Assembly (NCBI GenBank): GCA_947627435.1
Contig: CANQWB010000007.1
Location: 1-43,477, forward strand
Length of the DNA stretch: 43,477 nt
From: an uncultured Bacilli bacterium
GTDB taxonomy: Bacteria; Bacillota_I; Bacilli_A; RF39; UBA660
Direction: 5' to 3'
The notes under the pieces were generated by a model, which saw nothing but the letters and a program-made list of their open reading frames with translations, searched no databases and had not been told where the DNA came from. This document shows, piece by piece, positions 1 to 37,204 of the stretch (positions are counted from its first letter, which is position 1; every line of letters begins with the position of its first letter). The position numbers and the translations under genes were made by a program.

Positions 1-112
1 TATAAAAAAAGAAAATCAAATTTATTATAAATTCAACTTTCTTTCCTTTTTCCCCCAAATCTCTTTACACTAACGAAGTGAAATTCCTTTATTAAAATCA
101 CCCCTAAAAAGA
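1..112. other. AT-rich end of window, no gene seen
   Basis: This stretch lies downstream of the prepilin-like gene. It is AT-rich with a short run of five C (five G on the minus strand) and a small imperfect dyad around 64-82 (ACACT/AGTG arms). There is no T-run on the side expected for a minus-strand terminator, so I do not call one. Any next gene in the same direction would start beyond the window edge. Confidence 0.4.
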
Positions 113-15754: not shown

Positions 15755-15886
15755 ATTGTATCCTCCCTTCGCCTATATCTAGTATAGACTTGCTCCGTGT
15801 AAAAACCCGATATCAAGTTATTTTTTATAACAACTTAACCTGGCGTATCGGCAACCTCACACATCAACGCATGCCACACATACATA
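15755..15886 (-). promoter_or_regulatory. Structured 5' leader of the S10 operon
   Basis: On the minus strand the roughly 130 nt before rpsJ contain paired segments: CCGATA (right part) with TATCGG (left part) as a 6-bp stem, extended outward by GTGT with ACAC, and an inner small hairpin GTTAT/ATAAC with an A-rich loop. No T-run follows, so it is not a terminator. L4-controlled leaders of S10 operons are known in bacteria; assigning L4 here is inference from position and structure only. Confidence 0.4.
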
Positions 15887-15915
15887 ATTGTACATGAATA
15901 TTATATGAAATGCAA
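15887..15915 (-). promoter_or_regulatory. Candidate promoter of the S10 operon
   Basis: -10 TACAAT (15887-15892), 17-bp spacer, -35 TTGCAT (15910-15915, weak). A second overlapping -10, TATAAT, lies at 15900-15905 but has a poor -35 (TGTCTA). A start here would give a leader of about 130 nt. A better promoter further upstream (16253-16282) may also feed the operon. Confidence 0.4.
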
Positions 15916-16093
15916 GAGAAAATTAGACATTTTTGTAATTTTTTTGTTTTCTGATGCTTTTTTCATTCCCATACGAATAGTTATGCATCATCTATGAATA
16001 ATTCTGTACGGTTCTTGCAGTAATATTATGGTTTAATATCATTTTACATTTGTTCCGATTGTACTTACCAAATTACTTGCAGTGCATATTTTT

Positions 16094-16237
16094 CTAAATC
16101 TGTTCAACTTTTATTACTCTTCCATTTATGTAAGTAAAACTCACTCCAATTGTTTTTATCCCTTTTACAGTAATTTCATTAGTACCTATTTCCCCATCTA
16201 CGCCATCATTGAAACAAATACATAAGTTTTTTGCTTC
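16094..16237 (-). pseudogene. Decayed gene fragment, C-terminal 47 codons
   Basis: The minus strand holds an open stretch of 47 codons ending in TAG, reading EAKNLCICFNDGVDGEIG, then TNEITVKGIKTIGVSFTYI, then NGRVIKVEQI. It looks like normal protein composition and not random AT-rich translation. It is preceded in frame by TAA and has no start codon or ribosome binding site. I do not recognise the parent gene. Between this and the operon promoter (15916-16093) I see nothing else convincing. Confidence 0.3.
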
Positions 16238-16252
16238 TTATTTAATGTATTA

Positions 16253-16282
16253 ATTATGCAAAAAACCATCAAATATTGTCAA
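16253..16282 (-). promoter_or_regulatory. Near-consensus promoter in gene-free stretch
   Basis: Perfect -35 TTGACA (16277-16282), 18-bp spacer, -10 CATAAT (16253-16258). It lies just downstream of the licD-family terminator and points left, towards the relic and the S10 operon about 490 nt away. It could be an additional S10 promoter with a long leader or the promoter of a lost gene. Confidence 0.55.
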
Positions 16283-16316
16283 ATGAGAACGGAATTTCTA
16301 CATCTTCAATCTATAC

Positions 16317-16341
16317 AAAAAACTATTACTTGAAGTAATAG
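16317..16341 (-). terminator. Terminator of the LicD cassette
   Basis: On the minus strand CTATTACTT and AAGTAATAG form a tight hairpin around the end of the licD-like gene (its TAG stop is at the base), followed by TTTTTTG. Confidence 0.8.
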
Positions 16342-17181
16342 CTATTCTTCTGGATTTGGGCCATCTAAGTTAATATCTACAGTATGCTTTGCAAACCTTT
16401 TATTTTCTGGTGGCGGTGTCATATAGGTTGGACCAATATCCATACGTAAAAACGCATCATGATTATTAGCCATTTTGAATTTATAATTTTCAAACTCCAC
16501 GTCTTTTGTTGGATAGACATCCTCATATTTGAAAATATGACCTTTCCATGGTTTTATATAAGTCCAAGTTAAATCAAAACCAATGTATTTTGACTTACGA
16601 TTTAACCAACCATAAAATTTAGCAATCCCAACAAATAGCGATTTTAAAGGGATTGGATTAATATGAATGTTTTCAAACCCATTGATGATTAACATCAATA
16701 GACCATTTATGCATCTGAAAGGTACATCAATGATTTTATGCTTACTTACATAGTCTAATACAAAAACATCAATAAAAATACCATCACAATCACTACACTT
16801 ATTAGCAAGTAACGTATTCACCTCTTTAATATACGTATTTCGTTTTCGAATTTTCATTGGCGGAATTGTAACATTATATTTTTTATTTTGTTCATAGCAA
16901 TGAAACGTATATTGCTCTGGCAATTTTTCCTTTAGTACTTTAATAAAACGTTTATAATCTTTTCGCATCATTGCAATATCCAAATCGTCATCCCAAGGAA
17001 TAAATCCTTTATGTCGAATAGCACCCAATGCAGTACCACCTGTTAAAATATATGGAATATTATTTTCACGGCAAATGTGATCAATGTCAACCATCATACC
17101 CAAAAGTGCATTTTGAACATCCTTTACAGTTACAATTGTTCCATCTTTTTTCTTTTTCACAATATATTCTTGATTACTCAT
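16342..17181 (-). CDS. LicD-family phosphotransferase
   Basis: A 279-residue protein of the LicD/fukutin-like nucleotidyltransferase-fold family. The signature GGTALGAIRHKGFIPWDDDLDIAM (about residues 47-70) contains the metal-binding acidic run DDDLD. LicD of pneumococcus transfers phosphocholine from CDP-choline to teichoic acid, and animal relatives FKTN/FKRP transfer ribitol phosphate from CDP-ribitol. Here the gene follows a cytidylyltransferase and an SDR, so a CDP-polyol or CDP-alcohol donor fits. No choline kinase or choline transporter is nearby. There is no signal peptide. It overlaps the SDR by 8 nt and ends the operon. The substrate is inferred from context. Confidence 0.85.
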   Translation of the reverse strand: MSNQEYIVKKKKDGTIVTVKDVQNALLGMMVDIDHICRENNIPYILTGGTALGAIRHKGFIPWDDDLDIAMMRKDYKRFIKVLKEKLPEQYTFHCYEQNKKYNVTIPPMKIRKRNTYIKEVNTLLANKCSDCDGIFIDVFVLDYVSKHKIIDVPFRCINGLLMLIINGFENIHINPIPLKSLFVGIAKFYGWLNRKSKYIGFDLTWTYIKPWKGHIFKYEDVYPTKDVEFENYKFKMANNHDAFLRMDIGPTYMTPPPENKRFAKHTVDINLDGPNPEE

Positions 17182-18223
17182 GGTTAATACATCCCCTAAT
17201 ATTTATCGTATTTTGAATTCCTTTTTCAATATTATATTTTGGTTTCCAACCTAAAGATTCTAATTTTGCAGTAGACATACTAGTTTCTAAAATAGGAGTG
17301 TACCCAGCTTTTTCAATTTCATCTGGAATATCATATTGTACTTCTACATTCGCAATTCTTGCAATTGTAGCTGCTAAATCAGCAATTGTAATATAACTAT
17401 CATTGTTAGCAATATTATAAGCTTCGCCATTTTCTCCAAGAAATAGCTGATAGAAAATTGCATTTACTGCATCTGCCACATGGCAATAAGATCTTTTCTG
17501 CATTCCAGTACTCTTTAATACAATCGGTTCATGCTCTACAGCTTTATTTAAAAATTGTGCAACTGCTTTATCATCTGTTTTGGTATAGGTTGGTCCATAT
17601 ATGTGTGAAAATCTACCAATAATGATATCTAAATTATATTGTCTAATATAGCTTTGACATAGTGTTTCGGTTGCACGTTTACTATCCGGATAACAATTAC
17701 GAAAATTACCCAAAGAAATTAAAACTTGAGCATTTTCATTTACTTCATTTTTAGCTCCATCTCCGTAAACTTCACTACTGGATACATAGTAAATACGCTC
17801 ACATCTCGTTTTTCTAGCATGTTCTAAAATATTGAGCATTCCTAAAAAATTAGCTGTCATGATTCCTACTGGATTCGTGGAATACAATTTTGGACTAGCT
17901 CCACTTGCAGCATGGATAATATAATCAAATGCAATCTCATCATGAAAAGGTTCTGTAATATCTTGAATGATTGCATGAAATCGTTCATTATTTTCATAAT
18001 ATGAAAATCTATCTTTCATTTTTGCAATATCTCTGCCTAATGCATAAACATGTACATTTTGTTTACAATGCATCAAAGCATCTACTAAATAAGAGCCAAC
18101 TAAACCATAGGCTCCTGTAACTAGAACATTTTTATTATCTAGTTTTTTCCATGGCAAAGGCAAATGAATTGTCCCATCTAAGCATTCTTGATAATCAAGT
18201 GATTCTATTATATTATTCATCAT
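17174..18223 (-). CDS. NAD-dependent epimerase/dehydratase (extended SDR)
   Basis: A 349-residue extended short-chain dehydrogenase. The Rossmann NAD site is VLVTGAYGLVGSYLVDAL (GxxGxxG, residues about 33-50). Other marks: YIIHAASGASP, YYVSSSEVYGDG and the catalytic YPDSK (Tyr-x-x-x-Lys), then GRFSHIYGP. It is of the UDP- or dTDP-sugar epimerase/dehydratase class and not the classical 240-residue SDR fused to cytidylyltransferase in Haemophilus Bcs1. It overlaps the upstream cytidylyltransferase gene by 11 nt and LicD by 8 nt, so the three are translationally coupled. It probably modifies the nucleotide-activated compound or its precursor. The exact substrate is not visible. Confidence 0.85.
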   Translation of the reverse strand: MMNNIIESLDYQECLDGTIHLPLPWKKLDNKNVLVTGAYGLVGSYLVDALMHCKQNVHVYALGRDIAKMKDRFSYYENNERFHAIIQDITEPFHDEIAFDYIIHAASGASPKLYSTNPVGIMTANFLGMLNILEHARKTRCERIYYVSSSEVYGDGAKNEVNENAQVLISLGNFRNCYPDSKRATETLCQSYIRQYNLDIIIGRFSHIYGPTYTKTDDKAVAQFLNKAVEHEPIVLKSTGMQKRSYCHVADAVNAIFYQLFLGENGEAYNIANNDSYITIADLAATIARIANVEVQYDIPDEIEKAGYTPILETSMSTAKLESLGWKPKYNIEKGIQNTINIRGCINHE

Positions 18224-18908
18224 GGTTCGCCAACGCCTTAAATATTTTCATATCATCACTTGTTGTAATTTTAATATTTTGTTCATTACCCTTAGAAAAA
18301 TATATTTTTATACCTAATCGCATCATTAAGTCACAAGTAGCAACCGCATCAAAAATTGATTTTTGCTCGGCCATTTCATGTGCCCAAATCATATCTTTTA
18401 AATAAAAAGCATGTGGAGTTTGCGTTCTTTTCAGATTCTCACGAACCAAGTATGTATCAGAAGTCATCTGATCTTGCGTTTCTACAATTACCTCTTGACA
18501 TGGAATGACTGCTACTGCATTTCCTTTTTCCCTACAAGTTACAATCGCATCAGAAATAATGTCATCAGATACGAGTGCTCTATTTCCATCATGTACAACC
18601 ACAATGGTATCTTCCTCGCACTGTGCACGTAAAAAATCAATTCCTTTTTTAATAGATTCTTGCCCTGTTTTACCACCTGTAATAACCCATTTCAACTTAG
18701 TAATTCCATATTGTTTGGCATATGCAGTTAATATAGGTTCCCATCCTTCCAAACAAGTTACTAAAATTTCATCAATTCCTGGATATTGTTGAAATTTTTC
18801 TAAAGTATATATAATAACCGGTTTATTATATACTGTTAAAAATTGTTTCGGAACATCAGTTCCAAATCTGCTACCAGTTCCTGCAGCAGTAATTAATGCT
18901 ACTGTCAT
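18213..18908 (-). CDS. IspD/TarI-like cytidylyltransferase
   Basis: 231 residues, starting at the ATG at 18908 (MTVALITAAGTGSRFG) with AAGGAG 8 nt upstream; a GTG 9 nt earlier is less well placed. The CTP-binding loop AAGTGSRFGTDVPKQF is clear. Family members include IspD (methylerythritol-phosphate pathway) and TarI (CDP-ribitol). Canonical IspD has VHDAARP; here the block is VHDGNRA, and TQTPQ is TQTPH. With an SDR and a LicD protein directly downstream, a role in making a CDP-activated surface precursor is more likely than isoprenoid synthesis, but bench evidence would be needed to exclude IspD function. Confidence 0.8.
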   Translation of the reverse strand: MTVALITAAGTGSRFGTDVPKQFLTVYNKPVIIYTLEKFQQYPGIDEILVTCLEGWEPILTAYAKQYGITKLKWVITGGKTGQESIKKGIDFLRAQCEEDTIVVVHDGNRALVSDDIISDAIVTCREKGNAVAVIPCQEVIVETQDQMTSDTYLVRENLKRTQTPHAFYLKDMIWAHEMAEQKSIFDAVATCDLMMRLGIKIYFSKGNEQNIKITTSDDMKIFKALANHDE

Positions 18909-18913
18909 ACATT

Positions 18914-19078
18914 TCACTCCTTATGCTCATTTATTTTAATCATGGTAACAACTCCTATAATGATGATTCCCAATCCTAATAATATAAAGGAGAAGTCATT
19001 AAAAAGAAAAAGCGCAAAAGCAAACAAAACAAATGAAAACAATAATAATATTAACATCCATTTATGCCTTTTCACCAT
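18914..19078 (-). CDS. Small membrane protein, 54 aa
   Basis: A 54-residue reading frame starting MVKRHKWMLILL and ending NEHKE. Two hydrophobic helices (about residues 8-26 and 30-46) are separated by a short Asn-Asp turn, giving a two-pass hairpin with a basic N-terminus. GGGTGA lies a few nt upstream of the ATG. Its stop lies 5 nt before the cytidylyltransferase start, so it appears to be the first gene of the cassette. I do not recognise a family. It could help place the cassette enzymes at the membrane, but this is a guess. Confidence 0.6.
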   Translation of the reverse strand: MVKRHKWMLILLLFSFVLFAFALFLFNDFSFILLGLGIIIIGVVTMIKINEHKE

Positions 19079-19127
19079 ATATCACCCGATTCAAAACTTA
19101 TATATGTTAAGTATATCACAAATTTAT

Positions 19128-19160
19128 AAAAAGAAAAAGTAAGACTTTACTATCTTACTT
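19128..19160 (-). terminator. Terminator of rpsF-ssb-rpsR
   Basis: On the minus strand AAGTAAGA (19153-19160) pairs with TCTTACTT (19137-19144) across an 8-nt loop, followed by a T-rich tract. The rpsR stop codon lies in the stem. Confidence 0.8.
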
Positions 19161-19373
19161 TACGAATGGTATCAATGCCATGAAACGAGCTTTCTTAACT
19201 TCGTTTGCAATATGTCTTTGGTGTTTTGAGCAAGCTCCTGTAATTCTTCTTGGTAAAATTTTACCTTTATCACCGCTGATATATTTTTTTATAATTTCAG
19301 CGTCTTTATAGTCTACTGATTTTCCAGCACACATTTGACATACTTTTTTCTTTTTTCTATAAAATTCAGCCAT
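19155..19373 (-). CDS. rpsR: Ribosomal protein S18 (bS18), zinc-binding type
   Basis: S18, 72 residues, forms a dimer with S6 on the 30S platform. It has CQMC near the N-terminus and CSKHQRH later, giving a likely zinc site (two Cys, Cys, His) as in C+ forms. The core [26 protein letters not shown] is canonical. AGGAGG precedes the ATG. Last gene of the rpsF-ssb-rpsR unit. Confidence 0.96.
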
Positions 19374-35340: not shown

Positions 35341-36906
35341 TTACACATCTTGACTAAATATTTCGGCTAATTTTGCATCTTTATCAATACGAGCAAATAA
35401 AGGTTTGGCTTCATTTAATACAATTCCAGAATCCATTCCTTTAAAATCAATGCTTTCAATATAACGATTTTCTGTATTCAATTGTGCAAATATTTCATTT
35501 GCAGTATCTGGTAAGAATGCCTGTAATAAAACCGCACCACTACGGATAGATTCTAATAAATTGTAAAGTACTGTTTTTAAACGTTCTTTTTTATCTTCTT
35601 CTTTTGCTAAAACCCATGGCATTGTTTCATCAATATATTTATTACACCTTCTAAATACTTCAAAAATTTCATCAATTGCATCCGCAACACGTAATTCATT
35701 CATTTTTTCTTCTACTTTAGCTGGCATTTCTAATACCAAATCTATCAATTCTTGATCAATTGGTTCTAAACAAGTAGGTTCATACACAATTCCATCAAAA
35801 TATTTATGTACCATAGAAATCGTACGATTCACTAAATTTCCCAATACATTCGCTAAATCAGAATTAATACGTTCAATTAAAAGTTCATAAGTAAATGTTC
35901 CATCACTCGCATATGGCATCTCATGTAACATATAATAACGAACAGCATCAACACCAAATTCTTTGACCAATTCATCTGCATATACGATATTTCCCTTCGA
36001 TTTACTCATCTTATCCGTACCAAATAGTAGCCATGGATGACCAAATATTTGATCAGGCAATGGTAGGTCAAGTGCCATTAACATAATAGGCCAGTAAATT
36101 GTATGGAATCTTAAAATATCTTTTCCAATTAAATGTACATTAGCAGGCCAATACTTTTTGAATTCTTCAGAATGATTGCCATCAACATCATATCCTAAGA
36201 AAGTAATATAGTTGCTCAAAGCATCAATCCATACATAAATTACATGTTTATCATCAAATGTGACAGGTACACCCCAATCAAATGATGTTCTAGATACACA
36301 AAGGTCTTGTAATCCAGGTTTTATAAAGTTATTAATGATTTCATTCAAACGACTTTCTGGTTTAATAAAATTAGGATGTGTTTCAATATATTTTTCTAGT
36401 CTTTCTGTATAATTGCTTAACTTAAAGAAATATGCTTCTTCGCTCGCAGGTTTTACTTCCCTACCACAATCTGGACATTTTCCATCAACTAATTGTGATT
36501 CTGTAAAGAAAGATTCACAAGGTGTACAATATAATCCTTCATACCTTCCTTTGTAGATATCTCCTTGATCATAGAGCTTTTTAAATATTTTAGAAACCAT
36601 TTCTTTATGAGCAGGATTCGTTGTACGAACAAATTTATCATAACTTGTATTCATGACATCCCATATTTTACGTACATCTAAAGCTCTTTCATCAACAAAT
36701 TCTTGTGGATTTAATCCTGCATTATGTGCTTTTTCTTCAATTTTTTGACCATGTTCATCCGTTCCAGTTTGAAAATATACATCATAACCTGTCAAACGTT
36801 TGTAACGTGCAATTGCGTCCGCCAAGACAATTTCATACGTATTTCCAATATGTGGTTTCCCTGAAGCATAAGCTATTGCAGTTGAAATATAATATTTTGG
36901 TTTCAT
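35341..36906 (-). CDS. metG: Methionyl-tRNA synthetase
   Basis: Charges tRNA(Met). 521 residues from the ATG at 36906 (MKPKYYISTAIAYAS), with GAGGAGG 5 nt upstream; a reading from 36933 has no support. Class I motifs: KPHIGNTYE (HIGH type) and DKMSKSKGN (KMSKS). The zinc knuckle between them has CTPC and CPDC. It lacks the C-terminal tRNA-binding (EMAP/CsaA-like) domain present in longer homologues such as B. subtilis MetS. It is controlled by a T-box leader. Confidence 0.96.
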   Translation of the reverse strand: MKPKYYISTAIAYASGKPHIGNTYEIVLADAIARYKRLTGYDVYFQTGTDEHGQKIEEKAHNAGLNPQEFVDERALDVRKIWDVMNTSYDKFVRTTNPAHKEMVSKIFKKLYDQGDIYKGRYEGLYCTPCESFFTESQLVDGKCPDCGREVKPASEEAYFFKLSNYTERLEKYIETHPNFIKPESRLNEIINNFIKPGLQDLCVSRTSFDWGVPVTFDDKHVIYVWIDALSNYITFLGYDVDGNHSEEFKKYWPANVHLIGKDILRFHTIYWPIMLMALDLPLPDQIFGHPWLLFGTDKMSKSKGNIVYADELVKEFGVDAVRYYMLHEMPYASDGTFTYELLIERINSDLANVLGNLVNRTISMVHKYFDGIVYEPTCLEPIDQELIDLVLEMPAKVEEKMNELRVADAIDEIFEVFRRCNKYIDETMPWVLAKEEDKKERLKTVLYNLLESIRSGAVLLQAFLPDTANEIFAQLNTENRYIESIDFKGMDSGIVLNEAKPLFARIDKDAKLAEIFSQDV

Positions 36907-36981
36907 AATAACCTCCTCAAATAATTCACACAAATTCTTTATTGTATTATATGTAAATAATTTTGTGATTGTGTAACATAG

Positions 36982-37160
36982 AAAAACGCCCTAATGTAAG
37001 GACGTTAAAAACGCGGTACCACCTTATTTTATAGATTGCTCTATACACTTAAATCCTTAACGCGGTATTACGGTTTTTGCTAAACATTCACAAAAACGAT
37101 TCCAGAGCCATTCGAAATAATATCCTTACTTGTTTCCACCAACCACAAGCTCTCTATAAA
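36982..37160 (-). promoter_or_regulatory. T-box riboswitch for metG (Met specifier AUG)
   Basis: In the minus direction: AGAGAGC (37149-37155) starts Stem I; the distal part has GGTTGGTGGAAACAAG; then GAATGGCTCTGG, where AUG (37109-37111) is the probable specifier read by uncharged tRNA(Met). The T-box proper AAGGTGGTACCGCG is at 37012-37025. The terminator ACGTCCT/AGGGCGT with T-run lies at 36982-37005. Uncharged tRNA would stabilise the antiterminator and raise metG expression. The specifier assignment is by position and fits the gene. Confidence 0.93.
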
Positions 37161-37204
37161 ATTTTATTATTTTTCTCTCTTTCATAATCTTTACAATTTT
37201 GTTT

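Follow-up and report, generated by a model that had tools for sequence, protein, structure and literature searches.

The closest described counterpart of the locus analysed here is the HS5.18/HS5.17 pair of C. jejuni HS:5, in which HS5.18, a PF01128 enzyme, forms CDP-6-fructose and HS5.17, solved in complex with CDP-6-D-glucitol (8v4h), converts CDP-6-fructose to CDP-6-glucitol (PMC10918830). The same logic underlies the pneumococcal Mnp1/Mnp2, a PF01128 enzyme and an SDR that yield CDP-mannitol and share one similarity network with HS5.18/HS5.17, and about 400 pairs of an IspD-like enzyme and an extended SDR have already been catalogued (PMC10918830). Abp1/Abp2 of S. pneumoniae 17F have a role in CDP-arabinitol (PMC10118250). 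Amongst the LicD enzymes, the use of CDP-polyols is documented (PMC4873967; PMC11666461), and Mf1 represents the phosphocholine type (PMC11982090).

The window (the whole 43,477-nucleotide stretch of contig CANQWB010000007.1 that was analysed) carries four minus-strand ORFs in the order 2-TM ORF, IspD-like, extended SDR and LicD, placed between an S10 leader (RF03136, 15769-15875) and rpsR-ssb-rpsF, with the following features:

19127..19161, minus strand: hairpin ending in a U-rich tail, located between rpsR and the cassette, which probably terminates the rpsF-ssb-rpsR operon
18914..19078, minus strand: 2-TM ORF that opens the unit and encodes a two-helix membrane protein of 54 aa
18213..18917, minus strand: IspD-like cytidylyltransferase (PF01128), putative CTP:ketose-phosphate type
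17174..18223, minus strand: extended SDR (PF01370), putative HS5.17/Mnp2-type CDP-ketose reductase
16342..17181, minus strand: LicD-family putative alditol-phosphate transferase (PF04991)
16318..16343, minus strand: AT-rich hairpin with U6 directly 3' of licD, probable intrinsic terminator from folding

The first-pass annotation had described a tightly coupled four-gene cassette closed by a terminator. The coupling was confirmed, with successive overlaps of 4, 11 and 8 nt, the first of which is additional to the two it had reported. The closing terminator is plausible, an AT-rich hairpin with U6 being present, but the hairpin is weak (MFE -9.1 kcal/mol, z -1.9, 9 of 200 shuffles equally good), and a G+C-based terminator scan listed neither it nor the hairpin between rpsR and the cassette. 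The latter, a 10-bp AT-rich stem followed by a U-rich tail (z -1.5), probably separates the cassette from the upstream ribosomal operon. The 2-TM ORF is a marginal, optional part of the unit, because it is kept as a 53-aa ORF in one sister species (G003), yet nothing aligned to it in G002, G001 or G014. As the annotation had stated for tag and choline genes, neither tag/tar nor lic genes were found adjoining the cassette, and the teichoic polymerase/primase family PF04464 was not found in the window's genome either. Elsewhere in the window, ribosomal protein L3 (14556-15425, minus strand) has a long acidic Glu/Thr-rich C-terminal tail, unusual for uL3, and is 289 aa long compared to 260–273 aa in relatives, and a T-box leader (36995-37194, minus strand, 132 bits) precedes a methionyl-tRNA synthetase-like gene (35341-36933).

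Overall, the probable function of the cassette is to synthesise a CDP-linked sugar alcohol and then to attach the alditol phosphate to a surface glycan or glycolipid. For the substrate, the polyol and the acceptor, we infer the following route. The IspD-like enzyme would use CTP to convert a ketose phosphate into a CDP-ketose, the substrate being most likely D-fructose-6-P and alternatively a pentulose-5-P; the extended SDR would use NADPH to reduce the C2 ketone of the CDP-ketose, giving a CDP-alditol of the glucitol or mannitol type, or of the arabinitol type if the substrate is a pentulose; and LicD would transfer the alditol phosphate of this CDP donor onto the acceptor and release CMP. 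A hexitol derived from fructose-6-P is somewhat likelier than a pentitol. The two-enzyme logic is that of Mnp1/Mnp2 (S. pneumoniae 35A, CDP-D-mannitol) and Abp1/Abp2 (17F, CDP-D-arabinitol), to which the window pair is likened by described function, and Abp1/Abp2 follow a ketose-first mechanism. As in HS5.18/HS5.17, a PF01128 cytidylyltransferase is paired with a PF01370 SDR; unlike that pair, which lies in a capsule cluster, the window pair is coupled to LicD and stands alone between ribosomal genes, with no acceptor pathway linked to it.

Across 80 GTDB loci with close kin of the IspD-like enzyme, of which 74 were parsed, an extended SDR directly followed IspD in 53 and occurred somewhere in the locus in 64, while both an SDR and a LicD were present in 42, usually in the order LicD-IspD-SDR. 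The loci with both were distributed among the Lachnospiraceae, Oscillospiraceae, Erysipelotrichaceae, streptococci (L159, L163 and L164 being streptococcal loci with relatives of the trio), Clostridium ljungdahlii, Bacillus timonensis and others, including Streptococcus infantis, S. bovimastitidis, S. varani and Eggerthia. The LicD/IspD/SDR trio is thus common in Bacillota; less usual in the window are the order IspD-SDR-LicD and the ribosomal location, most relatives being found in a glycan cluster. The first-pass annotation had put forward a search of genomes for the trio; its suggestion of an undescribed pathway does not hold, as the pair type has been characterised as HS5.18/HS5.17 and Mnp1/Mnp2 and its many catalogued instances are on record.

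The extended SDR matched PF01370 (Epimerase) at 163 bits, far above the cut-off, and its top PDB sequence matches were 8v4g/8v4h (E 4e-43), with 28% identity to HS5.17. Its AlphaFold model (pLDDT 91) had 8v4h as the best fold match (TM 0.86) and possesses an N-terminal helix (residues 9–19), a feature that was noted as unusual in HS5.17, where it precedes the Rossmann fold (PMC10918830). Residues E151, R175, Y178 and K182, including the YxxxK pair, are invariant in 27 homologues and correspond to E140, R164, Y167 and K171 of HS5.17, with R244 corresponding to R233 and R64/K68 to R56/K60, which lie near the NADPH 2'-phosphate; E140, R164, Y167, K171 and R233 of HS5.17 comprise its catalytic and phosphate-binding residues. 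Two sugar/cytosine contacts of HS5.17 differ, Q196 and D212 being replaced by H207 and Q223, and H and Q are the commonest residues at these positions among 27 relatives. Because of this replacement, the product may be another polyol than that of HS5.17 or one of different stereochemistry, or the residues may represent a subfamily solution; naming the polyol from the active-site residues was ruled out, as the contacts differ.

Also considered was a role of the SDR as a 4,6-dehydratase or sugar-nucleotide epimerase that modifies an NDP-sugar for the acceptor glycan, with IspD and LicD handling a separate CDP-alcohol. Generic NCBIfam matches to dTDP-glucose 4,6-dehydratase and GalE models, and the sister cassettes that keep IspD-LicD without this SDR (see below), are in line with such a role, but it is very unlikely: the matches all fall far below cut-off, the top fold match is a CDP-glucitol reductase, and the SDR adjoins IspD in most parsed loci (53/74). 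Further, the SDR lacks the dehydratase Asp-Glu/Lys pair, because M139-E140 of HS5.17 corresponds to S150-E151 in the window; the acid/base pair is likewise missing in the reductases discussed in PMC10918830. The CDP-ketose reductase assignment agrees with the earlier proposal that the product depends on an epimerase-type SDR and not on a Bcs1/TarJ-type reductase.

The IspD-like ORF extends to a GTG at 18917, with a likelier start at an ATG (18908) preceded by AAGGAG. Its match to PF01128 (127 bits) is far above the cut-off, its best PDB sequence matches are ribitol-5-P cytidylyltransferases (E 4e-26), and its scores fall short of the curated cut-offs for TIGR00453 ispD (158 bits, cut-off 181.3) and for NF001183 ribitol-5-P cytidylyltransferase (150 bits, cut-off 166). 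The motif VHDGNRA, regarded as altered by the first-pass annotation, is present, but judging from the alignment HDGNR is a hallmark of the subfamily (56 of 77 close kin) and no peculiarity of the window enzyme; other IspD homologues of the class read HDAAR, HDGAR, HDAVR and similar.

The window's genome (1.21 Mb, 87% complete, 55 contigs) contains a single detected IspD, that of the cassette; gene counts for this genome refer to the searched markers, and genome-wide statements rest on family searches. IspF was found in none of 52 family genomes searched, the window's own included, and is present in 30 other genomes of the class. HMG-CoA reductase was found in none of 25 family genomes, again including the window's, and only ~20 of ~88 family genomes had an IspD match of any kind, several of them marginal. 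The second, canonical IspD that the annotation had envisaged elsewhere in the genome was therefore not found; the combination that would have spoken against its reading, a sole IspD accompanied by a complete MEP pathway, was also not observed, the sole IspD occurring without any MEP marker. Since neither IspF nor HMG-CoA reductase was found, the IspD-like enzyme does not appear to serve MEP, in agreement with the earlier call of a CDP-linked surface modification. A degenerate or moonlighting MEP IspD sharing an operon with an unrelated SDR and LicD is extremely unlikely: although it is the only IspD detected and reaches 158 bits against TIGR00453, this score is below cut-off, IspF is missing from its own genome and the other searched family members, an IspD match is lacking in most family members, and the motif is HDGNR instead of the HDAAR/HDGAR type. 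The mevalonate pathway was likewise set aside as the isoprenoid route, no HMG-CoA reductase having been found. UppS (PF01255) occurred in 3/7 family genomes checked, and PF00953 polyprenyl-phosphate-type transferases in all seven, with three in each.

The LicD protein matched PF04991 at 138 bits (cut-off 22.6), its WDDDxD metal site (D64-D66 and D68) is invariant in 25 LicD sequences, and it is the single LicD detected in the window's genome. The only significant PDB fold matches to its AlphaFold model (pLDDT 90) were FKRP. The family, the WDDDxD motif, the nucleotidyltransferase fold and a CDP-conjugate donor are shared with FKRP/FKTN (ribitol-P), Cps7C (glycerol-P) and Mf1 of Mycoplasma fermentans (phosphocholine); unlike these known enzymes, the window LicD has a donor assigned from gene context. 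An Mf1-type phosphocholine transferase was rejected, with a score far below the equivalog cut-off (NF045866, 73 bits, cut-off 225) and no adjacent lic genes.

The fold match to FKRP, together with the PDB matches of the IspD-like enzyme and its NF001183 score of 150 bits against 166, would also suit a CDP-ribitol route, in which the SDR only reduces ribulose-5-P, ribitol-5-P is then coupled to CTP by the IspD-like enzyme in the manner of TarI, and LicD, like FKRP, transfers ribitol phosphate. TarI-TarJ and Bcs1 resemble the window in combining an IspD-fold cytidylyltransferase with a reductase partner, but they differ in the reductase family, in reduction preceding CTP coupling and in the motif HDAVRP, where the window's subfamily mostly has HDGNR. 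As the NF001183 score is below the curated cut-off and the partner in the window is an extended SDR matching an enzyme that acts on a CDP-linked ketose, and not a TarJ or Bcs1-type reductase, this route is unlikely compared to the CDP-alditol reading.

The cassette differs among close relatives. IspD-LicD without the extended SDR occupies the same rpsJ-leader/rpsR site in the sister species G003, G002 and G001 and in G014, from another genus of the family, and G020 has an IspD-LicD cassette without this SDR at another site. No extended-SDR kin were found in G001, G002, G003 or G014, and only distant kin (30%) in G020; all five have a classical SDR of ~255 aa convergent to licD. A further genome of the same genus, G004, has a divergent LicD (L087:2274-3128; 34–39% identity to the others) beside a classical SDR, with no IspD detected. 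The window and G003 share 83% IspD identity (tree support 100/100), whereas the window LicD is 55–58% identical to those of G001, G002, G003, G014 and G020, and the LicD of G001, G002, G003 and G014 are 81–87% identical among themselves. In the LicD tree, G003 groups with G001, G002 and G014, apart from the window (97–99 SH-aLRT). The reductase and the LicD allele thus differ jointly around a conserved IspD.

Over the final ~100 nt of ispD, DNA identity between the window and G003 declines from ~0.8 to 0.6–0.7, and G003 there becomes closer to G002 and G001. This is consistent with an exchange of the reductase-LicD block whose breakpoint lay close to the ispD 3' end; the exchange may have been a gain in the window or a loss in the sisters, and a joint exchange is suggested because the sister cassettes keep IspD, lack this SDR, and carry another LicD allele and an adjacent classical SDR. 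Since these cassettes lack the extended SDR, IspD-LicD apparently works with another reductase or none. It is conjecture that reduction has passed to the classical SDR: its linkage to the cassette in G020, at another site, speaks for this, and its occurrence in G004, where no IspD was detected, speaks against it. Its place in the sister cassettes is putative, since in G004 it adjoins another LicD with no IspD and the genomes, the window's included, contain further classical SDRs. A remnant of the classical SDR, sought in the 15.9–16.3 kb gap of the window, returned chance-level matches only.

More tentatively, it is conceivable, if rather doubtful, that within one genus a fixed-site cassette switched its sugar-alcohol chemistry as a unit, with IspD kept and the reductase and LicD allele exchanged by recombination near the ispD 3' end, and with the sisters either replacing the reductase by the unrelated classical SDR or transferring the ketose phosphate unreduced. 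Weighing against the CDP-alditol reading of the window cassette are these sisters without the SDR, the 28% identity to HS5.17, the contact replacements, the unlinked acceptor pathway and the 87% completeness of the genome.

While the trio itself is a known and common module type, the joint reductase/transferase difference among sister species is the new and surprising part. Under the CDP-alditol reading, a trio labelled in databases as ‘IspD’ and ‘NAD-dependent epimerase’ would be reassigned to CDP-sugar-alcohol synthesis in a group of gut Bacilli that have reduced genomes and in which neither IspF nor HMG-CoA reductase was detected. The sister species constitute a natural experiment, with the same IspD and a different reductase and LicD, in which LicD donor specificity is directly testable. 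The interval from the S10 leader to rpsR (15800-16340 in the window; the same site in L034, L036, L037, L039 and L087) is itself variable, close relatives differing there in which type of cassette they carry, in the classical SDR and in additional genes (present, for instance, in G002 and G004).
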